Assembly: GCF_038396675.1 (NCBI RefSeq)
Contig: NC_088920.1
Location: 73,177,501 to 73,241,500 of the forward strand
Source of the DNA: Hydra vulgaris
Taxonomy: Eukaryota > Cnidaria > Hydrozoa > Anthoathecata > Hydridae
DNA: 64,000 nt
Direction: 5' to 3'
Below are positions 1 through 63,596 of this stretch, piece by piece. The notes under the pieces are model-generated. The model had not been told where the DNA came from, made no database searches, and worked only from the letters and a program-made list of their open reading frames with translations. The position numbers and the translations under genes were made by a program. Position 1 is the stretch's first letter, and each line of letters begins with the position of its first letter.

Positions 1-135
1 GACATAATGATTATAAATGTCGAGTTCTTCAAAAAATGTTTTTTGATATTTTTTTGCAGACATCAAGACAAATACCAGTTCTTCACCTGTTAATTGGATT
101 GTGTTTTTGACAGTACAATTGCAATTTCCACACAT
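1..135 (-). CDS. Partial small arm gene (family of 53317-53478)
   Basis: The frame is open from an ATG at 135 to the left window edge, so the gene is 3'-truncated by the window (45 codons seen). The start is preceded on the minus strand by poly-T, AG and CTAACTAATACA, the arm leader motif. The second arm copy has a homologue at 53317-53478: both share an N-terminal MxGN, an acidic/hydrophobic segment, and an ExLxxY-type C-terminal helix. The function is not recognised. It is the outermost gene of the arm. Confidence 0.6.
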   Translation of the reverse strand, partial: MCGNCNCTVKNTIQLTGEELVFVLMSAKKYQKTFFEELDIYNHYV

Positions 136-209
136 TGTATTAGTTAGCTAAAAAAAAAATTTATTGATAGAAAATAGTTTTACAATAAAAAAATAACCGT
201 GATAAATAT

Positions 210-464
210 TTACAAAAATGAATCATTATAAAAATTTTTATTGAGTTCAAATGGGGGTGCATCGCAAATCCATTGTTCTGGAGGGCTCGTGTTACTTTTT
301 TCTTCCATTTGTTTTTTGTTTTTCAATTCTAATTTTGAGCATTTTTTAAAATCCAGACCTTTTAATTTTATATGGAAATGTTTTAGTTTTATATTTGCGG
401 GTTTTAATTCGAATGAAGTAGCTGTGAGGTCTTCTTCCCAGTTTTCATTATTATTAATATTCAT
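210..464 (-). CDS. Small hypothetical arm protein, 84 aa
   Basis: The start at 464 follows poly-T, TTTAG and a short A-rich leader on the minus strand. The protein is charged; a Lys-rich middle (about residues 25-55) is followed by a short Pro/Cys segment (SPPEQWICDAPPFELN). No known domain is recognised. The copy at 53585-53791 aligns over the first half (ExKPAN/LPNLKLK...GLD pattern) but has an in-frame TAG at codon 9 where this copy has Trp. Conservation of the leader and of the Leu/Lys pattern supports a real gene. Confidence 0.5.
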   Translation of the reverse strand: MNINNNENWEEDLTATSFELKPANIKLKHFHIKLKGLDFKKCSKLELKNKKQMEEKSNTSPPEQWICDAPPFELNKNFYNDSFL

Positions 465-599
465 TTTTATTTATTTCTAAAGAAAAAAAGAAATGTTAGT
501 ATAAAGTAATATAAAAAAAATAAGCAATGAAAAACAAAAAAAAAATGTAATAAAAAAACACAAAAAATGTAATAAAATATATATTTCTGTATAAAAAAG

Positions 600-855
600 T
601 TATTCATTTTTTTTCAAGTAGCATGCTTGGCACACGCCACATTTCTTCATACAAAAGTAACGCTTATTTAATGTTTGTGAGTGTTTTAGACTTTCTCGTT
701 GAAGTTGAAAGAAGTAGGGATACATGGCTGTAAAACAAAAAAAAAGTTGAATGAAAAATTTTAATGATAAAAATAAATACAGAAGAAAAAAATATACCTT
801 TCATTTGTTTTTTCACTTTTTTGTTTGGCTTTCTTTTGCTGTAACCATATTTCAT
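600..855 (-). CDS. Spliced small CxxC protein, two exons, 61 aa
   Basis: Exon 1 is 798-855 and exon 2 is 600-727, separated by a 70-base GT-AG intron (donor GTATAT at 792-797; acceptor TTTTACAG ending at 728). Together they give exactly 62 codons. The encoded protein has a basic N-terminus (residues 1-20, rich in Lys/Arg) and ends with a Cys-rich tail (CMKKCGVCQACYLKK). The second arm copy (53920-54181) has the same two-exon structure, the same donor, and also exactly 62 codons, which strongly supports the splice model. Function unknown; the Cys tail could bind a metal. Confidence 0.75.
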
Positions 856-873
856 TTTTTTTTATTAGTTTGT

Positions 874-1344
874 CTATAAATATAAAATGATATCATTATA
901 ATGTACAAAATTATTTTCACGAATATAATAATATTGATCTATTGCCCATTGAATGTATTTTCTAATACAATTATAAAAAAAATCAAGTTGTTCATTTTTA
1001 ATATAACGATTATTATAGTGTGATCTAAACATTTCGTATAAAGAAGCAATAATTTTTCTTTGTATCCAATAAAATAAATTATGATTGAATAGAAAACTAA
1101 TGTTGTCATAATAAGAAAAGTCATAAATATAAAAAGATTTGTTTTCATCATAATAAAAATATAAATTTCCAAGCTGTTCTTTTAAAAATTCCAATTCAAT
1201 TTTAATTCTTCTATATGCCAATTTTCTTTTACACAAATCTTTTAACGTTTTCAAGTCTCCATCCATGTTATTTTTTGTTTCGGATGTAAACCAACTAACA
1301 ATGTGGATAATGTCGTATTCATAAAAGTGTTTACTTCTTTGCAT
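874..1344 (-). CDS. Helical arm protein, 156 aa (family A)
   Basis: The start at 1344 is preceded by poly-T AG TTAACTAATAAAA. The protein is aromatic- and Lys-rich and looks all-helical. Its middle (LKDLCKRKLAYRRIKIELE) is nearly identical to the centre of the next gene (1369-2109), so the two are paralogues and probably arose by duplication. A copy at 54204-54658 is broken by a frameshift. No established domain is recognised; a small helical-bundle adaptor or apoptosis regulator would fit the neighbours but is only a guess. Confidence 0.6.
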   Translation of the reverse strand: MQRSKHFYEYDIIHIVSWFTSETKNNMDGDLKTLKDLCKRKLAYRRIKIELEFLKEQLGNLYFYYDENKSFYIYDFSYYDNISFLFNHNLFYWIQRKIIASLYEMFRSHYNNRYIKNEQLDFFYNCIRKYIQWAIDQYYYIRENNFVHYNDIILYL

Positions 1345-1368
1345 TTTTTTTATTAGTTAACTAAAAAA

Positions 1369-2109
1369 TTAAAAATATTGTTTTACAATTTGAAAATGAA
1401 TAAAACAAGGTTCAATAGTATAAAAATATTGTTGTTGTGACCAACTTATATATTCCATGATTAAACGATATAATTTTCGTATTAAATGTATTTCCAGTTG
1501 TTTATTTGGATCAGCAAAATAGGATATTTCTGTAAATAGTATATGAAATAATTTGTAAAGATATTCTCTTTGAAGATTAAAAAATAATAAACGATTATTA
1601 AAAATATTAAAATAGGAATCAAATTCAAAATCAACGATGGAATGAAAGCTGTAAAATAACAAACGAATATTATCTTTATTTTTCCATTTGCTATGTGGTA
1701 GTTTGGTTTTATCAAATAAAGAAATAATTTTCTTTTGCAACTGTTGAAATTCTAAATAAATTCGTCGATAAGCCAAAGTTCTTTTGCACAAATCTTTCAA
1801 GCTAAGTTGTGATTGAATTTCACGGGTAAATCTGTTAAAGCGATTCAAACTATAACTGTCGAAAATAAATTGATAATAAGAAAAATGACGTTCTTCTTGA
1901 GTAAACCAGATGAGTGTTTGTTGTTCAAAGTTTTTAATATAAGAAAGAATGTTGAATTCTAAATAATGACTAGCTTTTCTTGTTTCTTTGTCTATTTCTA
2001 TAAACTTTTTTTCTCGTCCCATTTGTCGATGAAGACTTTGTAAAAAGTGACGAAGTGTAGTTTCTTCTTTATAAAGTATTCTTCTAATATTTCCCCAGTT
2101 GCTTCCCAT
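1369..2109 (-). CDS. Helical arm protein, 246 aa (family A, long paralogue)
   Basis: The start at 2109 lies just after poly-T AG ACAACTAAT on the minus strand. It shares the LKDLCKRTLAYRRI block and the C-terminal YI-W-QQYFY block with its neighbour at 874-1344, but has about 90 extra N-terminal residues (basic, QMGREKKFIEIDKETRK). The second arm copy has the same gene split by a 3-kb transposon (54992-57969). It appears wholly helical, with no membrane segment or catalytic motif. Function unknown. Confidence 0.6.
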   Translation of the reverse strand: MGSNWGNIRRILYKEETTLRHFLQSLHRQMGREKKFIEIDKETRKASHYLEFNILSYIKNFEQQTLIWFTQEERHFSYYQFIFDSYSLNRFNRFTREIQSQLSLKDLCKRTLAYRRIYLEFQQLQKKIISLFDKTKLPHSKWKNKDNIRLLFYSFHSIVDFEFDSYFNIFNNRLLFFNLQREYLYKLFHILFTEISYFADPNKQLEIHLIRKLYRLIMEYISWSQQQYFYTIEPCFIHFQIVKQYF

Positions 2110-2228
2110 TATTTTTAATTAGTTGTCTAAAAAAAAAAAAAGTTTACAAATGGAGTTAATACAAGTAAAAAAAATTTATAAATTGAGTTATACAAGTAAA
2201 AAAATTTTTTTTACCTAAAAAAAAAGAG

Positions 2229-2657
2229 TTAAATGAATTCTTGTGCACATTCAGGTGCTTCAGCTGGTTTTGGATTATATAAATGAAATAGTTCTTGTTG
2301 TTTTGCTTCTACAACTGCACTTGGATATGCTGGTGCATATACAGGTGGACGATTATTAACAACGCATTCTTCGTAACTAGGAAGACGTGGTATTTTATTT
2401 TTGTATTTGTTGAAAATATCATTTCGATGAATTGTTTTACATAATACGAGTAGATATTCCAATTTACTTTCTAATGATTCGTAAAGATGGCCATGTTCAC
2501 TTTGAATAGTATTATCTTTAAAGTATTCTATAATATCCAAACCATTTTTTAAAGTTTGTTTGATTCCTAACGGTATTCTGAGTAAGAATTTGATAGATTG
2601 CACGTTGTTGGTTGTTAGTTCAAAACTAATTTCTCTGAATATATCAATTGTATTCAT
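2229..2657 (-). CDS. Death-effector-domain-like protein, 142 aa
   Basis: The start is set at 2657, directly after poly-T AG ATTAACTAATAAAA; an upstream in-frame ATG at 2750 lies before this leader and is rejected. Residues 1-90 show the death-effector-domain layout: a first helix with IFREISFELT, then SIKFLLRIPLG, an intermediate acidic helix, and LEYLLVLCKTIHRND, matching the family's SLKFLL and LLxxIxRxDL pattern. The C-terminus is Pro-rich (PAYPSAVVEAKQ, PAEAPE) and lacks a caspase domain. Copies are at 58502-58939 and, with a nonsense codon, at 52245-52661. By analogy with viral FLIP-type proteins it could block caspase-8/FADD assembly; that is inference. Confidence 0.6.
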   Translation of the reverse strand: MNTIDIFREISFELTTNNVQSIKFLLRIPLGIKQTLKNGLDIIEYFKDNTIQSEHGHLYESLESKLEYLLVLCKTIHRNDIFNKYKNKIPRLPSYEECVVNNRPPVYAPAYPSAVVEAKQQELFHLYNPKPAEAPECAQEFI

Positions 2658-2755
2658 TTTTTTATTAGTTAATCTAAAAAAATAATGTATAATTATTAGA
2701 TAAAAGTATAAAAAAAATATAAAAATTGAGGTATAACAGTTAACAAACAAATATA

Positions 2756-3796
2756 TTATTGTATACTAATCGCGATAAATAAATTATTGTTAATAATAAA
2801 TGGTTTTAGTTCTTCGTGTGAAATAAAATTCTTATAACCAACAGCTACATTATATTCAGTGGTAGGTTTATCAAATGAACTGTCGTCTAAAAGTTGAAGA
2901 TAATTATTGTTGGTAGTAGTACGAGTAAAAAATTGTTCTTTATTTCTCAAGGTGATATTGACATTTTTGGTAAAAGGCCATTGTAAACCATCGTCCAGAT
3001 CACCTCTTAACAATTGAAAGTAAATGGCTAGATTGTTGATGACGGTACTTCGTGTATACACTTTTATTCGATAACGGTATCCTTCTGATGTGTAAACGGG
3101 TTCTGTATAAAATGTTTCATCTGATAACAGCCTGAGATTCATTTGATCGAGTTTGATTAATTGCGTGTCTTTAAAAACGTGTTGAATTATCTTGTCTTTT
3201 TTAGGTTGTTGAATGTAATTTTTTAAGGCTAAGAATTCTGTGCTATTTTCTTCTACGATATTATAAAGTTTTGTTATTTCTTGTTTGAGATGTTCTGTAT
3301 CTTGTTGATTTGCTAAAACCAACATGTTGTCATAAAAGAGACTTTTTAAATCTGCCATTTCTTGGTTCGTTTTTGCTAGGGTTTGTTGAAGTTTGTCATT
3401 TTCTTCTTTTAGATTTTTAATTTCTTTTTCTTGAAGACTCTTCATTTTAATCATGATTTGATTCATAGAAAGATTCAAATAATTTAAATTTTTCTTTTCG
3501 TCTTGAACGACTTGGTTTAAATAACGATTTTGTTGCTCTTTATAATATTGAAAGCAAATGACAGAGTGTTCATAATAATCTTGATCATCGATTTTGGTAT
3601 TACAAAAAAAACATATTTTTTGGATATCTAAAAATTCATAATCACATTCGTGGTTTAACAAATCTTGTACCTTTTTTTTACAGGTGAAACATTCGTGGGA
3701 GTATTGTTCTGTAGAACAATCTGCTTGATGCAGTAAAAGTTCTTTTGAACTAAATTCTTTGTCGCAAAAACAGCAAGGATATATGTTTACTGACAT
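2756..3796 (-). CDS. TRAF-like zinc-finger, coiled-coil and MATH protein, 346 aa
   Basis: The start follows poly-T CAG CAACTAATAAAA. Three short C2HC-type fingers are visible in residues 1-80 (CCFCDKEFSSKELLLHQADC; CFTCKKKVQDLLNHEC; CFFCNTKIDDQDYYEHSVIC). A coiled coil covers roughly 85-190, and a TRAF-C/MATH domain about 225-346 (YRIKVY, LAIYFQLLRGDLDDGLQWPF, VGYKNFISHEEL). The layout copies animal TRAF proteins but no RING finger is seen, so it should bind receptor tails or other TRAFs without ubiquitin-ligase activity. Related genes are at 59054-60096 (broken), 51185-52182 (broken, with an intron) and, MATH only, 16372-16929. Confidence 0.8.
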   Translation of the reverse strand: MSVNIYPCCFCDKEFSSKELLLHQADCSTEQYSHECFTCKKKVQDLLNHECDYEFLDIQKICFFCNTKIDDQDYYEHSVICFQYYKEQQNRYLNQVVQDEKKNLNYLNLSMNQIMIKMKSLQEKEIKNLKEENDKLQQTLAKTNQEMADLKSLFYDNMLVLANQQDTEHLKQEITKLYNIVEENSTEFLALKNYIQQPKKDKIIQHVFKDTQLIKLDQMNLRLLSDETFYTEPVYTSEGYRYRIKVYTRSTVINNLAIYFQLLRGDLDDGLQWPFTKNVNITLRNKEQFFTRTTTNNNYLQLLDDSSFDKPTTEYNVAVGYKNFISHEELKPFIINNNLFIAISIQ

Positions 3797-3867
3797 TTTT
3801 TTATTAGTTGCTGAAAAAAAAACATTTATTTATATAAAAACTATAAAAAAAAATATACATGTCTTTT

Positions 3868-4068
3868 TTAACATAAAAGAATTAATAAATAAACAAAATT
3901 GCTCAATAAAACATATAAAAGAATAAAAATATAAATAAGGTTCTTTTCAATAACTTCTTCTTCTTCAAATATATTGTTAAAAGTTATATTTTCTATTTCT
4001 TTTTGTTCTTCATTTAAATAATCACCAAACCCAGGAAACATATCTTCAAAATCATCATTATTATTCAT
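3868..4068 (-). CDS. Small acidic tail-anchored protein, 66 aa
   Basis: The start at 4068 follows poly-T AG ACAACTAA. Residues 1-40 are acidic (MNNNDDFEDMFPGFGDYL, then a Glu run); residues 43-66 are a single hydrophobic segment ending at the C-terminus, typical of a tail-anchored membrane protein. The copy at 60177-60361 keeps the DDFEDMFPGF core but has lost the ATG. The role is unknown; membrane adaptor or receptor decoy are possibilities. Confidence 0.55.
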   Translation of the reverse strand: MNNNDDFEDMFPGFGDYLNEEQKEIENITFNNIFEEEEVIEKNLIYIFILLYVLLSNFVYLLILLC

Positions 4069-4282
4069 TTTTTTAGTTGTCTAAAAAAAAAAAAAGAAAA
4101 AATTACAAAATAAAGTGATCTTATTTTATCACAACAGTTCGTCTTATGCTGCAATACGATGAAAAAAAATTACAAAATAAAGTTACAAAATAAAGTTCTT
4201 ATTGTCGAGTTTATTATTTAAAAAGTGATGATTGTTATTTGTTTTTAGTTGACTAAAAAAAGATATATTTATAAATAAAAAA
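4069..4282. other. Intergenic stretch with orphan leader
   Basis: No gene is seen. It contains one more copy of the arm leader at about 4240-4262 (minus strand: poly-T AG TCAACTAA) that is not followed by an ATG. A segment around 4120-4150 (TTATTTTATCACAAC-AGTTCGTCTTATG) is conserved at 60450-60482 in the second arm copy, so it may be the relic of a small gene or a regulatory element. Confidence 0.4.
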
Positions 4283-4743
4283 TTATAAATAAAGCTCTGG
4301 TAAGTTGTCCATTTTATTAATAATGTCTATAACGTATTGTTCCCAATCCATTTCATCTAAGATTTCATGCATTTCTTTTTCTATTTCTTCCACTTTTTTT
4401 TCCATTTCTTCTGCCAACATTTGTAATTTAAGTTCTTCAATATCGTCTGATTCTTCTTCCATTTCTTGTACTAATTGAACTAAATATTTTTCATAATCTT
4501 CCTCTGTTAATTCTTCCATTTCCATAAGTTCTTCCAAATCTTTTTCTTCTTCTTTTGTCAATAATAACTCGTAGCATATAGTACCCTCATAGCATATAGT
4601 ATCCTCATTATTTTCTCCATAACTAAAAGAAAAATAAAATATAAAAAATAAAATATAAAAAAAATGTATAAAAAAGAAAAAAATAGTGTATAGGCTTACC
4701 ATCCACAGTTTTTGATATATCGATTTTCGATATATTGTTTCAT
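4283..4743 (-). CDS. Spliced acidic helical protein, two exons, 127 aa
   Basis: Exon 1 is 4700-4743 and exon 2 is 4283-4622, with a 77-base intron (donor GTAAGC, acceptor TTTTAG). The total is 128 codons, in phase. Exon 1 encodes a short Tyr/Lys N-terminus ending in a Cys-Gly; exon 2 encodes a Cys-containing segment then a very acidic Glu-rich helix (about residues 40-115). The second copy (60514-60958) has the same 44-base exon 1 and the same splice sites. The start follows poly-T AG CAACCTAAT. Function unknown; the charged coiled helix suggests protein-protein contacts. Confidence 0.75.
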
Positions 4744-4867
4744 TATTTTAATATATTAGGTTGCTAAAAAATAAAAAAATTACAAATTAATTACAAAAAT
4801 TTACAATATTTTACAATACTGAAATACTGAAATAACCTAAAAGTGTATAATTAAATACTAAAAAAAA

Positions 4868-5197
4868 TTATTGCATTATAAAATTTTGTACAATTTCCAT
4901 AGTTTTTTTTATATGATCTAAAAGTGTATTATTAATTTCATATGTTGTATTATCGATAGTCCATTCCCATAAAGCTTGATATATTGCGCGAGCTGCTTCG
5001 AGTTCGGTACCTTTTCTTTGATAAATCAAGTTTAAAAGTCTCATCATTCTTTCATTACTGTTGGGGTTATCGTGTTGTATACATTCTATTTCTCGCTTTT
5101 CATAACCAAGATAAGCTGCTAAAGTTTGCCATCGTTCTGCCATTTGCCATGGTTGCAATTGTGCTGCTATTTTTAGTTTTAATTGTGTATAATTCAT
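4868..5197 (-). CDS. Death-domain-like protein, 109 aa
   Basis: The start follows poly-T AG CAAATAAAATA. The protein is essentially one six-helix death-fold: WQMAERWQTLAAYLGYEKREIECI, then a polar stretch and ERMMRLLNLIYQRKGTELEAARAIYQALWEW, matching the death-domain pattern W..LA..LG....I..I followed by ...LL..W. There is no effector domain. It sits next to a second death-domain gene (5228-5512); in the second arm copy the two are fused in frame (61097-61723). It is likely to interact with host death-fold adaptors. Confidence 0.75.
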   Translation of the reverse strand: MNYTQLKLKIAAQLQPWQMAERWQTLAAYLGYEKREIECIQHDNPNSNERMMRLLNLIYQRKGTELEAARAIYQALWEWTIDNTTYEINNTLLDHIKKTMEIVQNFIMQ

Positions 5198-5227
5198 TAT
5201 TTTATTTGCTAAAAAAATATAAAAAAA

Positions 5228-5512
5228 TTAATACAAATAATTCATTATAAATAATTTACATTGTTGTATGTTATATAAAAGTTTTTCATCTTCCCACATG
5301 GATAAAATAAAATACAAATGCTTTATCGCCAACTTTTTGTTTGGTTGATTTAGTATAAATAAAGTTAATACGTTTATTAATTTATCGAATGTTTTTATAT
5401 AATTTTTATTAATTTTTCTAATTTCAGTTCTTTTTAAATTTAACAAAAACGCCAAATGTTTCCATTCAAGATGGAGTTGCTTTGAGGTGTGATTTATTAT
5501 TTCTTTAATCAT
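5228..5512 (-). CDS. Death-domain-like protein, 94 aa
   Basis: The pattern is a small death-fold: QLHLEWKHLAFLLNLKRTEIRKI, then FDKLINVLTLFILNQ, KLAIKHLYFILSMWED. It starts at 5512 after CTAG AATAAATAAAAA. Its stop lies about 30 bases before the next death-domain gene's start. The homologue at 61410-61723 is joined to its partner as a single open frame. No other domain is present. Confidence 0.65.
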   Translation of the reverse strand: MIKEIINHTSKQLHLEWKHLAFLLNLKRTEIRKINKNYIKTFDKLINVLTLFILNQPNKKLAIKHLYFILSMWEDEKLLYNIQQCKLFIMNYLY

Positions 5513-5679
5513 TTTTTATTTATTCTAGTATATATAAAATAGTAATATTAAAATAGTAATAACAAAAAAATAGTAATGTATATATAATAGTAATAACAAA
5601 ATAGTAATAACAAAATAGTAATAACAACTAAAAAAAATTTTTTTCTATAAAAAAATATATACAAAAGCTTTATAAAATT

Positions 5680-6282
5680 TCGCTTTCTGTATATTCTGGA
5701 TCTGGACTGGAAAAAACAGACAAAGGGGATATTAAAAAAATATTTATACTTTTTAATAAAATAAAAAAAGATCAAGTTCAACTTACGAGGAGAGTAGTCC
5801 CAGTGTGAAGGACCCACTTCCCTATTGGGTTCTGGTGGTGATTGTGGTGGTGATCGTGGTGATAGTGGCGATAGTGGCGATAGTAGTGGCGATCGTGGTG
5901 GTGAACGTGGATAGGGATTTTCTAAAAAAAGAAAATATTTTTTAAAAAATGAATTTTTTTAATAAGAAAAAATGGTAAAGTTAAAAAAACTTACGACGAG
6001 TGCGAGAAAATCTTGTGTGATCTACAAAATTTTGGCTGACAAAGTTTCTAAACTCTTAGTCTTTGCATTTCTTTTTCTAGAAAAAAAATAGTATTTTAAA
6101 AAATAATAATTTTTCTTATAAAAATGAAAAAAAAAACCATAAAAACAATTACCTCTTTTTGCGTTGTATGGAAATACTAGTGCAATGGGTTTTTTTTTTT
6201 CATTTTGAATAATGAAAAATTGATCTTTTTCACTATCGCTAAACACTTCATATTTTATATTATTGATAGTAATATATCTCAT
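5680..6282 (-). CDS. Candidate multi-exon gene with Ser/Pro-rich exon
   Basis: Exon 1 begins at ATG 6282 and encodes about 43 residues (MRYITINNIKYEVFSDSEK...) ending at a GTAATT donor near 6152. A poly-T CTAG acceptor near 6080 and a GTAAGT donor near 5993 bracket a second piece, and a third piece (about 5785-5923) encodes a run of SP/RSPP/LSP repeats followed by an acidic HWDYSP segment, ending in a GTAAGT donor. A last short exon lies at about 5680-5709. All three frames of the second piece contain stops, so either exon 2 is skipped or the gene is damaged. The copy at 61840-62260 keeps the HWDYSP exon and its GTAAGT donor but has no Ser/Pro run. Confidence 0.4.
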
Positions 6283-6374
6283 TAAAACTAAAAAAAATAG
6301 GTTTATTTAGAAATAAATACTCTATTTTTTATTGTAATAAATATAAATAGTTATAAATATCATTTTTTTATAAA

Positions 6375-6710
6375 ATGCCTAAAATAAGGTATACTCCTAG
6401 ATCATTAAACACTGTCAATATGGCACGTACAAAAACAACAGTTCCTAGAACAAAAAAAGCAGTTCAAACACAAACAAGTAGAAAACAAAGTTCAACATCG
6501 ACACAGACTGAAAATCAGTATTTACCAAGCAATTGTAAAAGAATATTATCATGTTTACGAAGAACAAATAACAGATATAAAGATAATAAAACAAATCGTA
6601 AACTTGGAAGAGTTGGCAAAAGAATAAAACGCTGGGTTCATACTGCCGAATCCTATGTCGATATTAAACAACAATTAAAAGAAGCAAATATACGACGAAA
6701 AAATAAATAA
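6375..6710 (+). CDS. Basic protein, 111 aa, with conserved NRKLGRVGK motif
   Basis: It is the only plus-strand gene of the left arm. Two starts are possible: 6375 and an internal ATG at 6420, after which the N-terminus reads MARTKTTVPRTKK. The C-terminal half is very basic and carries a conserved block (SNCKRILSCLRRTNN, YKDNKTNRKLGRVGKR). The same block occurs at 62358-62774, in the broken gene at complement 50118-50502, and at the C-terminus of the core protein at 8290-8712. Probably nucleic-acid binding. The H3-like N-terminus is discussed in the findings. Confidence 0.7.
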   Translation: MPKIRYTPRSLNTVNMARTKTTVPRTKKAVQTQTSRKQSSTSTQTENQYLPSNCKRILSCLRRTNNRYKDNKTNRKLGRVGKRIKRWVHTAESYVDIKQQLKEANIRRKNK

Positions 6711-6727
6711 TATATTTATAAAAGTAT

Positions 6728-7272
6728 TTACAAATTATATAGATTTCTTTTTATTAAATAATTTAATTTTCTTTTAGCATTGCGACGTTTATACGACTTG
6801 CTTTGTTTCTTCTAAAAAATTTAAAAAAATAAAAAATTCTTAAAAAAAATTTATTTCTTTTTAAAAAATTTTTTTTTTAAAAATAACAACTTACTTTTTT
6901 TTTCAAAATATTGTTTTCTTGGAGCGGTTGAGTGTTTTGTTGGTTAGTTGGTATTTCTTGCTTAGTTGGGAGTTGGATACTTGATATTTCTTGTGTATTT
7001 ACTTTTGGTGTTTTTTTGTTTTTATTAATTGTAAAGTCTATATCTGTGTTTGTTTCGTTAAAAATTTCATAGTTGATATCGATATCTTCGTAATCATCTA
7101 TGACGATGATTTCTTTTTCATCGTCTATTTCATCGTCGCTTATAACAGTTATATCATTATCGCTAAATTCTAGTTCTTGTTCGCTTAATTCCATATTACC
7201 TGAAATAATTTCATCATTCTTCATAATTTTAGTCATTGTAAGTGTTAGCTTAGTAAAGCGAGCTTTTGCCAT
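6728..7272 (-). CDS. Spliced acidic protein with SUMO-interaction-like motifs, basic tail
   Basis: Exon 1 is 6895-7272 (126 codons), then a GTAAGT...TTTTTTAG intron, then exon 2 6728-6811 (27 codons plus stop). The homologue at 62687-63223 has the same donor and an exon 2 of exactly the same 84 bases. The acidic centre contains ITVISDDE and EIIVIDDYED, which match the consensus of SUMO-interacting motifs (hydrophobic core next to acidic residues). The exon 2 tail is Lys/Arg-rich and could be a nuclear localisation signal. Predicted nuclear role at SUMO-rich (PML-like) sites is inference. A TATA box lies upstream at 7300-7312. Confidence 0.75.
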
Positions 7273-7299
7273 TTGGTTTTGTTAATAAAAAATGCGCTT

Positions 7300-7636: not shown

Positions 7637-7965
7637 GTAGTAGAAAGTATAGAAAGTTTAATGTGAAAACACTAACTCGAAAGAATTAGTGAGTGCGTCT
7701 AGAAAGTATAGAAAGTTCAATGTTAAAACACTAACTCGAAAGAATTAGTGAGTGCATCTAGAAAGTATAGAAAGTTCAATGTTAAAACACTAACTCGAAA
7801 GAATTAGTGAGTGCGTCTAGAAAGTATAGAAAGTTCAATGTGAAAACACTAACTCGAAAGAATTAGTGAGTGCGTCTAGAAAGTATAGAAAGTTCAATGT
7901 TAAAACACTAACTCGAAAGAATTAGTGAGTGTGTCGAGTGAAAACACTAACTCGAAAGAATTAGT
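7637..7965 (+). repeat. Tandem repeat, about 60-bp unit, five copies
   Basis: The unit begins TCTAGAAAGTATAGAAAGTT and contains CACTAACTCGAAAGAATTAG, which folds into a hairpin around a GAAA loop. Copies are close to identical, differing at single positions (GTGAAA or GTTAAA, GCGTC or GCATC). The last copy is truncated. The equivalent region of the second arm copy carries an unrelated-length 51-bp unit, so the array evolves by local turnover. Confidence 0.85.
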
Positions 7966-16371: not shown

Positions 16372-16929
16372 ATGTCATCGTTTATTTTCACCAATGATGC
16401 AGCTTCACTGATCAATCATCCGAATTTTTTCTTCAACAAATTATATGCTGACAAAATAAAAAATTTAGATTTTCGATTATCCATAATGGAAGAAATGCAA
16501 CAACATGTTCAAGGCAACAAAATATGGATTTTTGAAAATTTTAAAGAACAGTTAAAAGATGAAAGCAAGGCTTATTATAGTGTTCCTTTTTATTATAAAA
16601 ATTATCAGTTTTTAATGAAATTGACTATGCATACGAAATGCGATAAACACGAAGAAGAAGAAATTGGTTTGTACATAATGATGCTATCTACACCTTATGA
16701 TGCAATATTAAAATGGCCATTTATCAATCATATTATTACTTTTAAAATATGTGGTCCTAACGGTAAACAAATAAAAAAAAGTTTTTCGAGGGAAAATAAT
16801 GTGTCTTTTCAACGTCCAGTCAAAGATCAAGAAAATGTTGGATATGGTTATTGTAATTTTATAAAAACAGCAGACATTAACGATTATTTAATTGAAAATA
16901 ATTTGTATATCAAATGTAAAATTAAGTGA
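16372..16929 (+). CDS. MATH (TRAF-C) domain protein, 185 aa
   Basis: Leader poly-T AG ATTAGTAAAAAAAT immediately precedes the ATG. Residues 50-185 match a TRAF-type MATH domain: IWIFENFKEQL, YYSVPFYYKNYQFLMKLTMH, IGLYIMMLSTPYDAILKWPF, VSFQRPVKDQENVGYGYCNF, LIENNLYIKCKI. It lacks the zinc fingers and long coiled coil of the arm TRAF-like protein (2756-3796). It may act as a stand-alone competitor for receptor or TRAF binding. Confidence 0.8.
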   Translation: MSSFIFTNDAASLINHPNFFFNKLYADKIKNLDFRLSIMEEMQQHVQGNKIWIFENFKEQLKDESKAYYSVPFYYKNYQFLMKLTMHTKCDKHEEEEIGLYIMMLSTPYDAILKWPFINHIITFKICGPNGKQIKKSFSRENNVSFQRPVKDQENVGYGYCNFIKTADINDYLIENNLYIKCKIK

Positions 16930-21878: not shown

Positions 21879-22133
21879 ATGAATAATATAAATGAAAATA
21901 AAAAAATGTTGGAGAAGATTATAAATATGAATTCTTTGTTGAAAGAAACTTTAACTAACGAGGAGAAAGAAAATGGCAAAACTTTAACTGAACAGGAAAT
22001 GGCATCTTTGAAATTTTTGTTAGATGAAAACGATAGTGACTTTTTATTTAAAATACGAACGAATTTAAATGTTAAAGTGATTTTGTTATTCTTTTTTATC
22101 AAATACACTTATATGTATTTTTTCAGTAAATGA
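21879..22133 (+). CDS. Small tail-anchored-like protein, 84 aa
   Basis: ATG 21879 is used. Charged helical body (NEEKENGKTLTEQEMASLKFLLDEN) then hydrophobic tail (VILLFFFIKYTYMYFFSK). Duplicate of 21649-21858. A tail anchor with no other domain suggests a membrane-associated regulator; identity unknown. Confidence 0.5.
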   Translation: MNNINENKKMLEKIINMNSLLKETLTNEEKENGKTLTEQEMASLKFLLDENDSDFLFKIRTNLNVKVILLFFFIKYTYMYFFSK

Positions 22134-22168
22134 AAAAAATATTTTTTTATCAGCAAATAATAAAAAAA

Positions 22169-23403
22169 ATGTTATCTTTGCAACAACAAAAAGCACTTCA
22201 ATGGCTTGATGAAGGAAAGAATTTCTTTATTACTGGTGGTGCTGGATGTGGTAAAAGTTATATTGTCAACCAAATTGCTCAAAGCGAACAAATTTATAAA
22301 ACAATACATATTACTGCGAGTACAGGAAAAGCATCTTATTTAATCAATGGTGTCACCATACATGCTTTTGCTGGTATAGAAACTGGTGTTAAAAGTGTTG
22401 ATTATTATAAACGTCATATGCATCCAGACATTAAAAAAAACGTGGTTGGAAACTCATGTTTTAATTATTGATGAAATTTCAATGATTAACGCTTCAACAT
22501 TTGATTTATTACATTCGATAGCTTGTGAAATTAGACAATGTTACGATGAATTATTTGGTGGTATACAAGTGATTGCTTGTGGTGATTTTTTTCAGTTGCC
22601 ACCTGTTTCAGGTCAATTTGTTTTTAAATCACAAATATGGCTACACTACATGACAGAAGTGTTGGTTTTAACTCAATGTTTTAGACAAAAAGACGACGAA
22701 CAATTTTTTGGAGCTTTAAATGAACTACGTGTTGGTCAAGTTTCAGACAAAACTATTGATTATTTTATGACGCGGTGTTTTGAAAAAGATGAAAATTTAA
22801 ACTCTAAATATACAAGATTGTTTTTTAGAAACATCGAAGTGGATGTTTATAACAATCAAAAAATGGAAACTATCAAACAAGAAGGGTATTGGTTTTATGC
22901 TAAAGATGTTATTAAAAAATCGAAATATTCCATGCTCGTTTCAAATTCCGGCAGCTGTTCATCTTAAAATAGGTGCTATTGTGATGCTTGTAAGAAATAT
23001 TAATGTGGAAGAAGGTTTGTGCAATGGTACTATTGGTACCGTTATTTTAATAGAAAGTAATGCAGTTTGGGTAATGATGAATAAAAAAGAAGTCAAAATT
23101 GAATGTGTCAAAGAAGAAATTTTAGATTGCTCTCATGCTGTCGTAGGCTCAAGATTTGGTTTGCCTTTAAAATTAGCATTTTCTTTTACGGTTCATAAAG
23201 CACAAGGAAGTACCATGAATAAAGCCGTTGTTCAATTTAATTCAAAGGCTTTTATTAATAGTCTTTATTATGTTTCTTTATCACGAGTTTGCAATATTAA
23301 CGATATATTTATAATTATTAATAATAAATTTGATTTACGAACACTATTTAAAAGTATTACTGTTGATTCTGATGTTTTGGAATTTTATAAAAAATACATG
23401 TAA
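22169..23403 (+). pseudogene. PIF1-like superfamily 1 helicase, two frameshifts
   Basis: Unwinds DNA with 5'-3' polarity in this family. Motifs in three successive frames: Walker A FITGGAGCGKSYIVNQIA, Walker B LIIDEISMINASTFD, motif III ACGDFFQLPPVSG, motif IV LTQCFRQ, motif V/VI AFSFTVHKAQGSTMNKAVVQ and YVSLSRV. Frame changes occur near 22432-22440 (an A8 run) and between 22890 and 22950. All motifs are preserved, so either the damage is very recent or these are homopolymer sequencing errors. ATG 22169 is set by the position of the helicase N-terminus. Confidence 0.85.
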
Positions 23404-23430: not shown

Positions 23431-26400
23431 ATGAAATTTGAATATCAAACTAAGGAAACTCGTTTTAGTAATAACAGTATATACACGGAACATTTTTTTT
23501 ACATTAAAGATGGTTATAAAGATGAAGATATTGTAGAAGAATCACAACTTTATTCTGAAACTCAAAGTCCTGATGAAATTGTTCATCATGTTGAACAAAA
23601 AACAATGGAAGGATTTAAAACACAAATGAAAAACAGTATTCTTTTTGCTGACTTGTTTCAAAATTTCTTATTGGGTTATAATATTGTTACTTTGTGTTGC
23701 AAGTCTATTGAAAATGGTTATTGTAAAATAATGAAACGTTGTTACAATTCACCTGTTTATTTTATTAAACCTTTAGAAGGACCGACAAATTTGCGTTTTA
23801 TTCAAGATGCCAATGTGCGAGCTGTTTTTAATGTTTTAGAAAACGACAGCGGATGGAAGATAATACGATTATGTAATATTAAAATTAAAACTTTATCCAA
23901 TTTAACAGAAAGATCCATGATGAAATTACGAGATTTTGAATTGTCTGGTTTTAAAAGAAAAATGCTCACGACAGATGAAGAAATTGAAAAAAAGAAAAAA
24001 CTCAACAAAACTTATTATGAAAAAAATAAAGAAACACTAAAACAACGAAAAAAAAGAAACCAAAAGAAAAAACACATGACAAATGAAGAAATTGAAAAAA
24101 AGAAAAAACTCAACAAAACTTATTATGAAAAAAAGAAAGAAACGCTAAAACAACAAAGAAAAAGTAACCAAAAGAAAAAACACAACAAAAGTTATTACGA
24201 AAAAAAACAACAAAAGAAGATAGAAATAGACGAATGGTTTGGTGAATGGTATAGACCTCATTCTTTAACACAATGGGAAAAAACACTAAAAAGTACTGTT
24301 TATACTATTCTGTCTTATCAACAAAAAAAGAAAATGTTTTTAGATTATAGTATTTTATTTGAACCAGGATTATGTTTTTATTCTGCTTTTCTCGTCTCTT
24401 TGTTGATTCGTCAATGGAATGTGAGCACCATTGAAGAATGGAATAGAAAAGTGTTGGAAAAAAATACTACAGATTTATATTCTGAAGAAAATATTTTACA
24501 ACTTCTTTTTGAAGATCAAGAAGAGCAAAATGTTCTAGCGTGGAAAGACGTTTTACAACAAATAAAAGAAAAATCTAAAAATATGTCATTTCAAACTTTG
24601 ATTGATTTTTGTCATTGTTTTGCTTACGAAAACACTTTTGATCGTATTAACATTAAAATTTTTGCCGTTAACAAAAAAAACACCAAAATTCGTTTGTTGC
24701 ATTCAAAATTAAAATCACAATATAAAAGTTCTCTTGCAGAATTGTTAAAAGTAGTTTACGAAAGCGCAAACATTACCAAAGACGATCAAGATTCTCAAAG
24801 AGTATTTATTAACGACGAAGAAAGAAATAAAGCCAATGAACGGAAAAAAACAATCAACACGATCAAAATTTGTATTTTTCAAAAAAATAATTCTTTTCAC
24901 GCTATAAGCATGTTGAATGAAAAATTTTCTACAAAGTATTTTTGTTCTAACAACTCGCGTGTTTTGTTTCAATGTTCTGATTGTGGACAAAAATTTACTA
25001 AAAAACACAAATGCGAAGGTTATTATAAACCGGACAAATTTACATACGGTGATTGCATTACTCACTATCGGCCACAAAATTCGTTTATGTGTACAAGTAG
25101 AAACTTGTTTCCATTTTTAATGACTTTTGATTGCGAAACGAGTATTACAAAGTCTGAAGAAAATGCTACTTGCAAAGTCAAACCTTTATCTGAGTTGAAT
25201 TATTATTGTCATTCCATTGTGATTCAATGCATTCATGAAAAATTAGCAAGAGAATGTTTTGGTTTGGACGAACAAGGACAAGTCATTACTCAATGGATTT
25301 TTTATTATGAAAATACGGTTGAAAGTTTAGAAAGAAATCCTTTAACTTGTCTACCAGACTATTTTCAACCAGGAGTTTCTTTACTTCACAAGACACACAG
25401 ACGTATCTTGTGGGAAAGGCTAAATTGTGAAAATAATGAAAAATTAAAAATGGAATTGAGAGTTTACGATATCATTGCTTTAGCAGATACTTTGGTTCGA
25501 TTTACTTATGAAATATGTTTGCCGCGTTTTGAAATTTTAAATATATCAAGTGAAGAAAGAGATTTAATATGGCAAGAAGAAAATCCTTGTTGTTCTATTT
25601 GTAGAACTCCCGTAGATAAAATACGTCAATCTGATGTTTATAAAAATAAATTTTCTCACATGACTCCTCAAGAAATGGAAAGATTAAATCATAATGAATT
25701 TCGCATTTATAACGACAAACGAATTCAAGTTGTAAACATGGTGTTTCAAAGAGTAGGACGATTGGAATTGTTCATGTTACCTTGTCACGTTCAAAATTAT
25801 TTAATCGACAACGATGCTGAAAAAATAAAACAAGATTTATTTCGAGTCTCCACTTTGTATTACATTTGTTGTAGATGGTGGGAAAAATTTCAACACTTAC
25901 CTGCCACTAACGGATTATTGAGTGATTATGTGAGAATCACCACTGCTGAACTTGTAGATTATATGAAACAATTGTCTTTGCTTATCATGACCGAACACCA
26001 ATTTGAAAACTATTTTAATCAAGAAGATATAGAGTTATTAGAAGATCCCTACTTTTTAATCAAAATCTTTCGCAAATGTATTAACGAAACGGGTGAACAA
26101 TATACAGACAACCTTCATTTTTTGTTTCTCATGAGAAAATTCAAGCAACCCGTCTACGAATTATGGTATCACACCATGTTGGTTGCTTTTAATAAACAAT
26201 TTGAAACCCAATTTAGTTTAACTGATTTTATTCAAGATGAAAAAAATCGAGAAAAAGTTTTAAATAAATGCCAATTTTTTCTTAACGCTTTTGAAGATTA
26301 TCTTGTTATTGATCACGATCATTTTTCAGGACAAGTGTACGGATTAGCTCACGATTATTGCAACAAAAATTTAGGTAGATATAGTCAGCATTTATCTTGT

Positions 26401-29220
26401 CCTATATTTGCTCATAATGCTTCTTTTGATAATCGTATTATGATTGTAGAAGGTTTAAAAAAAATATTGGATATTCCGTTATACGGTCATTTGGCAGAAT
26501 CTGAAACTACACCTTTTAATGCTTTTATAAAATACAGCAACATGGAAGATGTTTTTGTTATATCTAAAAATGTAAGCAAAGTCAATATTATTTGCATCGG
26601 TAAACATATTAAAATTGTAGATAGTTTGAAAATTTTAAACTGTTCCTTAGAACAGGCCAGTAGTATGTTGTCACAAAAAGCACAACATCAAATTGTCAAC
26701 ACCATGTTGCATTATTTACGACCTTTTCATCCCGAAGTAAATGATTTAGCCGACAATTTAGAGTTTAAAAACTGTTTTATTAAAAAAACATTATTTCCTT
26801 ACTCGCAAATAACAGACGAACTCTTAAACATTGAATATAAAACATTTCCACCGATTGAATTATTTGCTCAAAACGATTTAATGAAGTCTAAAAACTTACA
26901 AGAAGAAATTAAAAAATTGAAAGAAGCTTACGAAGGTGTTAAAAAATTGTGGAACTTTTTGAATTTAAAAACTTTAAAATCCTTATTGCATATCTATACT
27001 GTGCTCGATACGGTCGTATTAGGTTCTGTTATGATAGACTTTGACGAAAGAACATTTCAATTTACAAAGTTTCATATTCTAAATCATGTTAGCATTTTTA
27101 GTTATACTAGCAAACTCAATTCTACCATCAGTTTAATTCCAATCCAATATCCTGCGACCAACGAACATCAAAAAATGATTGAAAAGAGTATTCGAGGCGG
27201 TATGTCCACCAACGGTACGCAAAAGTTTGCCATTGATACAGATTACTTTGAACCTAAAATAAAAGAACTCAAATTAAACAGCGAATTGAGAGGTTGTTTA
27301 ATTTTTATGGACGAAAACGGACAATACGGAGGAGCTCAATTAAAACCTTTACCTTTTCACATGAAATATTCTTTTGATTTGGAATGTATTACTTTAGACG
27401 ATGTGATTCGAAAATATCATCGCGTTAATTTAAACGGTTTCTCGACGAGCGCTTTAGTGCATTGTCAAATTACTATGAAACCAGAGTATCAAGATCAAGT
27501 AGGAGGTTTTTCACCCATGGTAGAAAAAGAAATTATATCTTTTCAAGATTATTCTCCCACTGAAATTGTATCCAAACGTTATCTCAAAAACAATGGAACC
27601 TACGGTATAGAAAAAGACAAAACTATTAAATTGGTCATGAAATTAAGTTCGCATGAGACTTGTGAATTTTTAGACACTTTAATATGGTTGACTACGTGCT
27701 GTGGATGCGTTGTTGAAAAAATTTACAAAGTGCTTCCTCTATGGCGTTATCCTTTAGCTCAAAAAATGGTAAAACGAAATATGGAAAAAAGAAAAGAAGC
27801 TATTAAAAAGGGTGACAAGGTAGTGGACGCTTCTTGCAAGTTGCAAATTAACGGTCATTACGGAACCTTGAGTCAACAAATTGCACAAAAACTAAATACT
27901 ACTTTTATGAACCACGAAGAAAAAGCATTTCAAAATAGTATTGAAAATTTTCAAAACATTCGTCGTGTTTTAATTCAAGAAGGTCAAACCGATGAAAATA
28001 TTAAAAAGTTATTCCCTTTTCATTTTCAAAATTTATTATATAACGGATCACAATTCATCGGTGTTGAACCTGAAAGATATAAATTGGACGTTTTTGAAAA
28101 AAAAGTATGTTTAGATGAATACGAAACGAGTGATTTTAGTTATGATGATTATTTTAAAGAAACTTTGTTTGGTTTGATGACAGATGTTAAAACCAAAAGT
28201 ATTTTATTTCACGAACAAGACAATCATCATGAAATGAAAGACGCCTTTGAACTTTTAAAATCTAAAGATCATAAAAACGCTCTCATTTTAACAACCAGCG
28301 AAAAATGCAAACTCGTGAACACCTCTTTACGTATTGTAGCTTCACAAATTTTATCTTATGCCAAACTTAATGTAGGACGTTTTAGTTGGGAATTGGGACA
28401 AGTATTAAGAAATCATGGAGCTGAAAAACATTTAGTAGTAACAGATACTGATTCTGGGTGCTTTTTTATTACGCAAAAGAAAGACAATATGCATTTCAAC
28501 GTTTCGCGTTTTATTTTTTCAACGTTTCGCGAAAAGGTAGAAGAATGGATTTATTTTTCAAAATTCGGAGATCGATGGATGGATTATTCCAATTATAAAA
28601 ATACTCATCCTTTTTATTCCACTCTTTACGCCAAAGAAACGGATCATTTTCAAAACGAAATACCTCCTCCTTATTACATTGCACAAGCTTTTGCTATGGG
28701 ACCTAAATGTTATAGCGTTCATAGCGTCAACGGAGACGAAGAAAAAAATTATTATAAAAATAGAGCTAAAGGAGTACCCAATTCTAAACTTTTATTTTCA
28801 AATTATGTCAACGGATTCGATACCTTTGCTGCCAAAAGATTGTGTAAACAAGTTCCTTTTTCAGTGATAAAAGAAAATCAACCTATCGAACAAAATAGAA
28901 TGAGTGTCAATTACAAACAAGTGAAAATACAAACGCACACTATTGATTTTTTAAAAAGATTTACACAAAAAAATTATGTTTTTGATGACGGAGTCATGAC
29001 CGAAATTCGTGATCATTATCTTTTGCAACCGATACGAGAAGCCAATTTAAAAGTGTTACCCGATATAGAAAAATTTTGTAGCGATGAACATATTCAAAAA
29101 TTACTTGAAATTGAAAAAAATATTATAAAACAATCTGAACGTTATCAAACAATGGCCATGTTTAATCGAAAAGTTTTGATCCCTTTATTATACGATCTTA
29201 AAAAGAATATAAATTTGTAA
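23431..29220 (+). CDS. polB: Protein-primed family B DNA polymerase, 1929 aa
   Basis: Replicates the element. From N to C: a Lys-rich repeat region (about 180-260); a Cys/His pair (GLCFYSAF about 315, NSFHAIS about 490) with the look of an OTU-like or papain-like fold; a zinc motif (CSDCGQKFTKKHKC about 515-530); exonuclease Exo I (LMTFDCETS, about 566); an endonuclease VII-like DHDHFSG...CNKNLG block (about 960-980); Exo-type PIFAHNASFDNRIM; motif A MDENGQYGGAQ (about 1293); motif B KLQINGHYGTLS (about 1471); motif C TDTDSG (about 1672). The motif A triplet QYG replaces the usual SLYP. The reading frame is intact. Leader AG ATTCTTAAAAA precedes it. Confidence 0.93.
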   Translation: MKFEYQTKETRFSNNSIYTEHFFYIKDGYKDEDIVEESQLYSETQSPDEIVHHVEQKTMEGFKTQMKNSILFADLFQNFLLGYNIVTLCCKSIENGYCKIMKRCYNSPVYFIKPLEGPTNLRFIQDANVRAVFNVLENDSGWKIIRLCNIKIKTLSNLTERSMMKLRDFELSGFKRKMLTTDEEIEKKKKLNKTYYEKNKETLKQRKKRNQKKKHMTNEEIEKKKKLNKTYYEKKKETLKQQRKSNQKKKHNKSYYEKKQQKKIEIDEWFGEWYRPHSLTQWEKTLKSTVYTILSYQQKKKMFLDYSILFEPGLCFYSAFLVSLLIRQWNVSTIEEWNRKVLEKNTTDLYSEENILQLLFEDQEEQNVLAWKDVLQQIKEKSKNMSFQTLIDFCHCFAYENTFDRINIKIFAVNKKNTKIRLLHSKLKSQYKSSLAELLKVVYESANITKDDQDSQRVFINDEERNKANERKKTINTIKICIFQKNNSFHAISMLNEKFSTKYFCSNNSRVLFQCSDCGQKFTKKHKCEGYYKPDKFTYGDCITHYRPQNSFMCTSRNLFPFLMTFDCETSITKSEENATCKVKPLSELNYYCHSIVIQCIHEKLARECFGLDEQGQVITQWIFYYENTVESLERNPLTCLPDYFQPGVSLLHKTHRRILWERLNCENNEKLKMELRVYDIIALADTLVRFTYEICLPRFEILNISSEERDLIWQEENPCCSICRTPVDKIRQSDVYKNKFSHMTPQEMERLNHNEFRIYNDKRIQVVNMVFQRVGRLELFMLPCHVQNYLIDNDAEKIKQDLFRVSTLYYICCRWWEKFQHLPATNGLLSDYVRITTAELVDYMKQLSLLIMTEHQFENYFNQEDIELLEDPYFLIKIFRKCINETGEQYTDNLHFLFLMRKFKQPVYELWYHTMLVAFNKQFETQFSLTDFIQDEKNREKVLNKCQFFLNAFEDYLVIDHDHFSGQVYGLAHDYCNKNLGRYSQHLSCPIFAHNASFDNRIMIVEGLKKILDIPLYGHLAESETTPFNAFIKYSNMEDVFVISKNVSKVNIICIGKHIKIVDSLKILNCSLEQASSMLSQKAQHQIVNTMLHYLRPFHPEVNDLADNLEFKNCFIKKTLFPYSQITDELLNIEYKTFPPIELFAQNDLMKSKNLQEEIKKLKEAYEGVKKLWNFLNLKTLKSLLHIYTVLDTVVLGSVMIDFDERTFQFTKFHILNHVSIFSYTSKLNSTISLIPIQYPATNEHQKMIEKSIRGGMSTNGTQKFAIDTDYFEPKIKELKLNSELRGCLIFMDENGQYGGAQLKPLPFHMKYSFDLECITLDDVIRKYHRVNLNGFSTSALVHCQITMKPEYQDQVGGFSPMVEKEIISFQDYSPTEIVSKRYLKNNGTYGIEKDKTIKLVMKLSSHETCEFLDTLIWLTTCCGCVVEKIYKVLPLWRYPLAQKMVKRNMEKRKEAIKKGDKVVDASCKLQINGHYGTLSQQIAQKLNTTFMNHEEKAFQNSIENFQNIRRVLIQEGQTDENIKKLFPFHFQNLLYNGSQFIGVEPERYKLDVFEKKVCLDEYETSDFSYDDYFKETLFGLMTDVKTKSILFHEQDNHHEMKDAFELLKSKDHKNALILTTSEKCKLVNTSLRIVASQILSYAKLNVGRFSWELGQVLRNHGAEKHLVVTDTDSGCFFITQKKDNMHFNVSRFIFSTFREKVEEWIYFSKFGDRWMDYSNYKNTHPFYSTLYAKETDHFQNEIPPPYYIAQAFAMGPKCYSVHSVNGDEEKNYYKNRAKGVPNSKLLFSNYVNGFDTFAAKRLCKQVPFSVIKENQPIEQNRMSVNYKQVKIQTHTIDFLKRFTQKNYVFDDGVMTEIRDHYLLQPIREANLKVLPDIEKFCSDEHIQKLLEIEKNIIKQSERYQTMAMFNRKVLIPLLYDLKKNINL
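23967..24215 (+). repeat. In-frame tandem repeat in polymerase
   Basis: Two and a half copies of a roughly 108-base unit encoding EEIEKKKKLNKTYYEK..KETLKQ..K.NQKKKH. The third copy is cut after NKSYYEKK. It makes a Lys-rich linker between the N-terminal region and the Cys/His domain. Confidence 0.8.
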
Positions 29221-29247
29221 AAAAAATTTTTAAATGATTATAAAAAA

Positions 29248-29601: not shown

Positions 29602-29718
29602 AACAATCAGAACGTTATCAAACAATGGTCATGTTTAATCGAAAAGTTTTGATCCCTTTATTATACGATCTTAAAAAGAATATAAATTTGTAAAAAATTT
29701 TTATGATTATAAAAAAAA
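29602..29718 (+). repeat. Duplicated fragment of the polymerase 3' end
   Basis: 29602-29693 repeats the last 31 codons of the polymerase (28 residues of MFNRKVLIPLLYDLKKN context) with two base changes, then its stop and the spacer. It marks the boundary of a roughly 470-bp tandem duplication whose units are about 29129-29601 and 29602-30060. Confidence 0.85.
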
Positions 29719-30301: not shown

Positions 30302-30372
30302 AAATTTTTTTGATAAAAAATGGATATAAATTAAAAAAATGTTTTTTTTTATTCGTAGTTAAAAAAAAAAAA

Positions 30373-63594: not shown

Positions 63595-63596
63595 TA

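Follow-up and report, generated by a model that had tools for sequence, protein, structure and literature searches.

TRAF-like and death-domain adaptor genes in the left-terminal arm of a Maverick/Polinton-like element of Hydra vulgaris

According to our analysis, the 64,000-nucleotide stretch of the Hydra vulgaris genome considered here (contig NC_088920.1, positions 73,177,501 to 73,241,500; hereafter the window) carries an integrase-bearing, virus-like element, likely a Maverick/Polinton judging from its gene content, with capsid and protease unconfirmed, whose left-terminal accessory region (the arm) encodes products that would be stripped-down adaptors of the tumour necrosis factor (TNF) receptor pathway. 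The original prediction had placed a death-fold/TRAF module in such a terminal arm, and both the open reading frames (ORFs) and the domains were found there; it missed a second element, which begins at about 53.0 kb with a matching arm. On balance, we favour the reading in which the arm is an accessory module of decoy adaptors damping TNF receptor (TNFR) and death signalling, where we infer the targets, the direction of the effect and the host origin. We give even chances to the broader proposal that Hydra harbours a giant Maverick lineage with a multi-node TNF-receptor decoy kit, expressed gene by gene via host splice acceptors, and that viral copies rather than a host TRAF expansion account for most of the "TRAF2/3/5-like" Hydra proteins recovered here. 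The elements and the genes on which the argument turns are the following.

Element 1: about 43 kb, its start placed just left of the window by alignment, right end at 42655 to 42880 (plus strand); arm on the left, core at about 15 to 41 kb
Element 2: 53000 to 63850 (no strand assigned); left end and arm in the orientation of element 1, running out of the window
2756 to 3796, minus strand: TRAF-like protein, 346 amino acids (aa), with three CCHC zinc-finger-like motifs, a coiled-coil-like stretch and a C-terminal MATH domain, no RING
2229 to 2657, minus strand: protein resembling a death-effector domain (DED), 142 aa, death-fold region at about residues 1 to 90, tail with LP[ST]YEE
4868 to 5197, minus strand: death-domain protein DD-B, 109 aa, Pfam Death 33.6 bits, E = 4.4e-8, above cut-off
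5228 to 5512, minus strand: death-domain-like protein DD-A, 94 aa, Pfam Death 18.0 bits, E = 0.0033, under cut-off
16372 to 16929, plus strand: second MATH protein, 185 aa, in the core, Pfam E = 9.9e-19
30053 to 30301, plus strand: death-domain-only protein, 82 aa, in the core, Pfam E = 1.2e-10
58502 to 58939: DED-like gene of element 2
59314 to 59973: open piece of the broken TRAF gene of element 2
61097 to 61723: fused double death domain of element 2, DD-A and DD-B in a single ORF

The MATH domain of the TRAF-like protein is recognised by Pfam with 64.7 bits (E = 1.4e-17), and its closest solved structures are those of TRAF5 (4gjh, E = 1.1e-10), a chain named "TRAF" (7ypc, 1.6e-10) and TRAF3 (1.8e-9), the TRAF5 and TRAF3 entries together spanning E = 1e-10 to 3e-9, so that the protein possesses the C-terminal MATH/TRAF-C domain of the TRAF family. 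The MATH residues aligned with the TRAF5 structure (SSF.KP and N.A.G...F) are retained across the TRAF-like family, with F308 in 24 of 24 and G320 in 23 of 23 of the rows that have a letter there (30 rows aligned). The 12 ligands of the three CCHC motifs are retained in 14 to 19 of 16 to 19 rows, while the Pfam scan of this ORF returned no zf-TRAF match. The same scan found no RING, and the first finger cysteine lies only seven residues after the ORF start; the N-terminal RING that marks the TRAF family except TRAF1 is therefore missing, and the RING-less TRAF-type MATH protein of the original prediction is confirmed. Between fingers and MATH domain, a heptad-like pattern has hydrophobic residues at two thirds of the a/d positions in its best 42-residue stretch, a count made without a control. 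NCBIfam rows on this coiled coil were set aside as coiled-coil noise, the best reaching 17.7 bits against a cut-off of 420. In element 2, the open piece of the TRAF gene is without most of the MATH domain and has no Pfam MATH match.

DD-A and DD-B lie in frame in element 1, 30 bases apart with a stop between them, and form a single 208-aa ORF in element 2, which as a whole scores 45.6 bits with Pfam Death; there, the DD-A copy by itself reaches 23.9 bits (E = 4.5e-5), above the cut-off of 22.6. In the structure model of the element 2 homologue of DD-B, 19 death-domain entries rank above any unrelated fold, the ankyrin and p84 death domains scoring similarly to those of the TNFR pathway. Both hallmarks of the Death domain family (PF00531), a score above cut-off and a six-helix death fold, were thus found. 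The profile of both DD-A copies matches RIPK1 and FADD weakly (E = 0.036 to 0.41), and the rows covering DD-A in the fused model (about residues 1 to 98), which are unrelated helical proteins at low pLDDT, were rejected. Of the two death-domain-like proteins originally proposed, DD-B is accordingly upheld by Pfam and by the model, the refuting outcome named beforehand (a structure lacking the death fold, or matches to unrelated helical families alone) not having occurred for it, whereas DD-A is borderline, with Pfam and the weak RIPK1 and FADD sequence matches in its favour.

The DED-like ORF, nested in a longer ORF that starts with TTG (2229 to 2750), scores 29.2 bits (E = 1.1e-6) with Pfam DED in element 1 and 26.9 bits in element 2. 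Against sequences of the Protein Data Bank (PDB), its profile gave no match and the single sequence gave three unrelated rows at E = 1.6 to 1.7. The LP[ST]YEE motif, kept in both copies at residues 92 to 97 after the DED-like domain, resembles a WW-domain ligand.

MATH and death-domain genes also occur inside the core, as had been proposed. The core MATH protein matches TRAF structures with E from 1.5e-11, and the core death-domain protein matches RIPK1 (E = 2.7e-7) and FADD (E = 1.9e-5) among PDB sequences; WD40 rows for the latter were discarded as a repeated 15-residue match in which no stretch passes alone. Since the arm and core MATH proteins are only 28% identical and the core death domain is barely related to DD-B (E = 0.013), these pairs go back either to old duplications or to independent captures. 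The Pfam scan of 14 element 1 arm ORFs found no RING, kinase or caspase family, in line with the earlier claim that the arm has no such effector domain.

The comparison of the two elements, whose main aligned blocks are 81 to 90% identical, allowed selection to be estimated by the Nei-Gojobori method with 95% bootstrap intervals over the ORF stretches open in both. The ratio dN/dS has an interval below 1 in seven of nine arm genes: the DED-like gene (0.15, 0.09 to 0.26), the basic protein gene at 6375 (0.19, 0.03 to 0.57), the TRAF piece of 218 codons (0.25, 0.14 to 0.44), DD-A (0.27, 0.11 to 0.49), the SUMO-interaction-like protein at 6877 to 7272 (0.27, 0.12 to 0.53), the acidic protein at 4283 to 4702 (0.34, 0.17 to 0.68) and DD-B (0.44, 0.22 to 0.95). 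For ORF 1369 to 2109 (0.53, 0.28 to 1.00), the interval touches 1. The DED-like and TRAF genes are under purifying selection. Across the arm, dS ranges from 0.13 to 1.85, with the top values for DD-A (1.09) and the SUMO-interaction-like gene (1.85) near saturation, and this spread suggests a mosaic ancestry of the arm genes.

Pieces of the arm also recur elsewhere in Hydra. Searching a set of 5.8 billion proteins with the TRAF-like protein yielded, from 1212 candidates, 28 relatives at E < 1e-3, all from Hydra vulgaris and 40 to 93% identical, 25 of which are annotated as TNF receptor-associated factor 2-, 3- or 5-like. Their longest contigs have 11 different lengths, which suits dispersal and possibly reflects more than one assembly. 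In a tree of 30 rows, the window TRAF pairs with relative P0001; of the 27 inner branches, 10 have full support and 11 are drawn open. A small FGD-type ORF, corresponding to the N-terminal part of ORF 3868 to 4068, precedes the TRAF part in 11 of the 28 gene models (P0001 to P0004, P0006, P0008, P0009, P0020, P0021, P0026 and P0027), as counted by eye; a first regular expression picks out ten of these, with P0027 contributed by the others. P0020 and P0027 have in addition the C-terminal part of the acidic ORF 4283 to 4702 ahead of the small ORF and TRAF (BLASTP for P0027: 9e-9 for the acidic ORF end, 1e-12 for the small ORF), and the C-terminal end of P0026 corresponds to the start of the DED-like ORF (44% over 45 residues, E = 1e-11). 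The joined models are therefore overlapping pieces in the minus-strand order of the arm, acidic ORF, small ORF, TRAF and DED; none of the models holds all four genes, and 17 of 28 have no neighbour. We take the joined models as automatic joins of neighbouring element genes, so that a large share of the "TRAF2/3/5-like" annotations in Hydra probably denote genes of such elements. Selection and the repeated gene order together argue that the arm is a maintained module and not a chance insertion, and on the same grounds chance ORFs were ruled out as its explanation. A host gene cluster outside the element was likewise rejected, since the arm adjoins the repeat-like end of element 2 and accompanies both elements.

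Many genes of the arm and of the middle of the core share a T-tract, a YAG and a short leader such as ATTAACTAATAAAAA directly ahead of the ATG. In the TRAF, DD-B and DED-like genes, and for DD-A in element 2 only, the T-tract and AG lie 10 to 17 bases ahead of the ATG. Both the acceptor rule and the grouping into arm, mid and late genes were fixed after the sequences had been inspected. Among 42 chosen starts, the site is present at 8 of 13 in the arm, 7 of 10 in the mid group and 1 of 10 in the late group, as well as at 1 of 4 in the left core and 3 of 5 in element 2. In 1000 dinucleotide shuffles, the mean was 0.69 for the arm and 0.58 for the mid group, the observed 8 and 7 were never attained, and 171 shuffles gave at least one late site; arm plus mid differ from late with a Fisher p of 0.004. 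Since choosing had omitted ORFs, every ATG ORF of at least 80 aa was counted as well, giving 7 of 11 (arm), 9 of 15 (mid) and 2 of 12 (late; Fisher p 0.012), with 1 of 11 in the left core, 1 of 5 between the elements and 3 of 12 in the element 2 region, broken and inserted ORFs included. The two late-region ORFs with the site are the death-domain gene at 30053 and a packaging-type ATPase candidate. As background, 118 of all 2171 ATGs have the site, as do 21% of intergenic positions on the coding strand of the arm; against this stricter control, 8 of 13 has a binomial p of 0.002. By position, the T-tract, AG and leader precede arm ORFs and those at 16372, 17025, 18364, 19175, 21185, 23431 and 30053, and are rare at the integrase-side genes.

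The Hydra operon gene flp has a T-rich acceptor for trans-splicing (PMC3273482), and the T-rich tract with AG just 5' of the ORF that characterises such spliced-leader acceptors was found in the arm. Several Hydra gene models also splice, by eye, within a few codons of the ATG. Given this site ahead of their ATGs, the TRAF, death-domain and DED-like genes probably become separate mRNAs by splicing, perhaps by spliced-leader trans-splicing; the shared 5' site may instead be a promoter motif.

DD-only and DED-only proteins are a known means of capping death-receptor assemblies. In the decoy reading, the RING-less TRAF would trimerise, bind receptor tails and take up places on receptors and adaptors while supplying no ubiquitin-ligase activity, the DD-only proteins would cap death-domain assemblies of the FADD, RIPK1 or TNFR type, the DED-like protein would cap FADD-caspase filaments, and the infected cell would survive during element replication. 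Cnidarians are described as employing apoptosis in the antiviral response, with Nematostella TRAF3-like genes up after double-stranded RNA (PMC11251625).

The same proteins could have the opposite use, nucleating death-domain and DED complexes that kill the host late in replication and aid release or dispersal. Isolated death-fold domains are indeed able to nucleate filaments, yet neither a RING nor a caspase domain was found in the scanned arm ORFs, and the 5' site is common to the death-fold/TRAF genes and the helicase and polymerase starts, not the dUTPase or the integrase side, a distribution that may suit early rather than late action; we hold this pro-death use to be unlikely. That the domains serve the biology of the element itself, in particle or replication-complex assembly, appears quite unlikely to us: MATH and death folds mediate oligomerisation in general and both are present in the core too, but the best matches are the MATH domains of TRAF5 and TRAF3 and the death domains of RIPK1 and FADD (ankyrin and p84 being similar for DD-B), and the joint presence of TRAF, DED-like and several death-domain proteins indicates one pathway.

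We have little confidence in a resident element that aids its host, by superinfection exclusion or through innate adaptors domesticated against other viruses and elements. It would agree with the many Hydra relatives annotated as genes and with polinton-like viruses being described as antiviral in protists (PMC12220804), whereas the TRAF gene is broken in one of the two window copies and the constraint was measured on element-borne copies. It is very improbable that the arm consists of host genes that were carried along and do nothing for the element, as the broken TRAF and the interrupted 1369 homologue of element 2 could suggest, in view of the seven of nine arm genes with dN/dS intervals below 1, the recurring order and the contigs of 11 lengths.

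Several findings weigh against the decoy module that we prefer. Both copies of the DED-like protein fall under the Pfam curated cut-off (35.9), and its model, at a mean pLDDT of 56, has weak matches to PYD death folds and not to DEDs; the death-effector-like protein of the original prediction is supported by Pfam matches in two copies and by this weak death-fold match. DD-A is borderline as a death domain, Foldseek gave no match at E < 0.001 for either model (DED and double death domain), and protein searches with the two DEDs and with the double death domain returned no relatives at E 1e-3. ORF 874 to 1344 has a dN/dS of 1.03 (0.50 to 2.70), where constraint is undetectable, the TRAF of element 2 is broken, and the spread of dS means that single ratios are possibly distorted by recombination or saturation. 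Moreover, ORF111L of the megalocytivirus ISKNV, a viral TRAF, promoted apoptosis, though it bears a RING (PMC3352826).

The same ORF111L shares the coiled coil and MATH domain of the Hydra protein and binds TRADD, but PMC3352826 describes it as RING-bearing and apoptosis-inducing, whereas the protein of the Hydra element lacks a RING and carries three CCHC motifs. TRAF1 of mammals is likewise RING-less, with coiled coil and MATH, and is likened to a dominant-negative TRAF2 (PMC6305416). TRAF1 is a cellular gene with one zinc finger, in contrast to the three CCHC motifs here. Viral FLIPs, FADD and RIPK1 are, like the arm products, adaptor-only DED or DD proteins of death-receptor signalling. 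Viral FLIPs carry tandem DEDs, unlike the arm, which has a single DED-like stretch per protein and single death domains, with a tandem double-DD ORF in element 2.

Accessory regions beside a Maverick core (PMC8097293) and anti-apoptotic homologues in adintoviruses (PMC11071296) are already known. Like the vertebrate Maverick/Polinton elements of PMC8097293, the Hydra element combines an integrase with an accessory region beside the core, and it has candidates for the PolB-like and ATPase-like genes and for the inverted-repeat-like ends; it differs in size, about 43 kb against 12.7 to 24.6 kb for intact vertebrate Mavericks. Beyond these, it has Pif1, dUTPase, an Endonuclease VII-like insert and the TNFR-adaptor arm, capsid and protease being unconfirmed. 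Adintoviruses are Maverick-related animal viruses, most of the mammal-associated ones apparently with anti-apoptotic homologues and/or candidate oncogenes; the passage of PMC11071296 that describes them names no death-domain, DED or TRAF genes, while the Hydra element has them. In the open-licence literature searched, Polinton and death domain were not found together, nor were TRAF, DED-like and several death domains seen in one arm in the titles and abstract openings. If the decoy reading is true, viral interference with death-receptor signalling extends to Cnidaria, in an animal easily kept and made transgenic, and the arm proteins provide baits for pulling down the TNFR/FADD/TRAF network of Hydra. 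Hydra TRAF gene counts from automatic annotation may contain viral copies, and the element offers a test case for the capture and retention of signalling domains by a Maverick-like element.

The arm encodes further proteins:

874 to 1344 and 1369 to 2109, minus strand: two related ORFs of no known family, 156 and 246 aa, 29% mutual identity, E = 2e-13
3868 to 4068, minus strand: small acidic ORF, 66 aa, tail-anchor candidate, net charge -12, hydrophobic stretch 47 to 65
4283 to 4702, minus strand: acidic protein, 139 aa, net charge -33, N-terminal hydrophobic stretch 4 to 22
6375 to 6710, plus strand: basic protein, 111 aa, net charge +25, 96% identical in element 2 over 93 residues
6877 to 7272, minus strand: acidic protein with SUMO-interaction-like motifs ITVISDDE and IIVIDD

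The first two share an LKDLCKR motif and have no Pfam family above cut-off. The SUMO-motif protein that had been proposed is present, at 6877 to 7272 and not 6728 to 7272; its copy in element 2, 42% identical overall, has VIVIEDD. As to the proposed tail-anchored or small acidic proteins, 3868 to 4068 has the C-terminal hydrophobic stretch, while 4283 to 4702 is acidic with its stretch at the N-terminus.

The assignment to Maverick/Polinton draws on the core, where a dUTPase (Pfam E = 1.3e-21) and these genes were found:

22130 to 23403: PIF1-type helicase pieces in neighbouring overlapping ORFs
23431 to 29220, plus strand: putative family-B DNA polymerase, 1929 aa, with an Endonuclease VII-like insert and the motifs FDCET, DENGQYGG and DTDSG
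30310 to 31167, plus strand: packaging-type ATPase candidate, weak Pfam matches only
34380 to 35675, plus strand: rve-type integrase, Pfam rve E = 1.2e-6, under cut-off

Because its Pfam matches are scattered over overlapping ORFs, the helicase gene would be broken or intron-bearing. The Pfam scan of the polymerase ORF gave no PolB match, and we take its three motifs to be those of a polymerase; Endonuclease_7 (Pfam E = 5.5e-6) spans residues 947 to 986 (DNA 26269 to 26388). The ATPase candidate matches ATPase_2 (E = 4.5e-4), Pox_A32 (0.013) and Adeno_IVa2 (0.02), all under cut-off. The integrase also matches an NCBIfam IS481 transposase (E = 4.1e-9, under cut-off), so that an rve integrase, as in Maverick/Polinton elements, is present with scores under cut-off. 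ORF 36391 to 38799, considered as a capsid, had no match among PDB sequences, and no protease family was above cut-off among the core ORFs scanned. IMG/VR scans with the TRAF, ORF 32238, the integrase and ORF 36391 confirmed no relatives, such single-protein scans reaching close relatives only. Directly upstream of the core death-domain gene, a tandem duplication (29202 to 30055, about 90 to 91% DNA identity) holds two near-identical ORFs.

The length of about 43 kb for element 1 follows from the alignment, which would place its start outside the window, some hundreds of bases to the left. Its right end (42655 to 42880, plus strand) is terminal-inverted-repeat-like, with inverted similarity to 53167 to 53236 (83% over 71 bases) and, with gaps, 66% identity over 307 columns; we therefore interpret the stretch at about 52.96 to 53.24 kb, which is inverted-similar to 42.65 to 42.88 kb, as where element 2 has its left end. 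The comparison is between the right end of one element and the left end of the other, the window containing both ends of neither. Element 2 has an arm that reaches about 63.8 kb, and its match to element 1 continues up to the window end. A GC-richer stretch of about 2.9 kb (about 55.2 to 58.0 kb) interrupts the 1369 homologue in this arm; it is probably another mobile element, and in three of its ORFs no Pfam family exceeded the cut-off. Both elements carry short tandem arrays at the inner arm edge (7641 to 7938 and 63601 to 63804) with 59-base and 51-base units.

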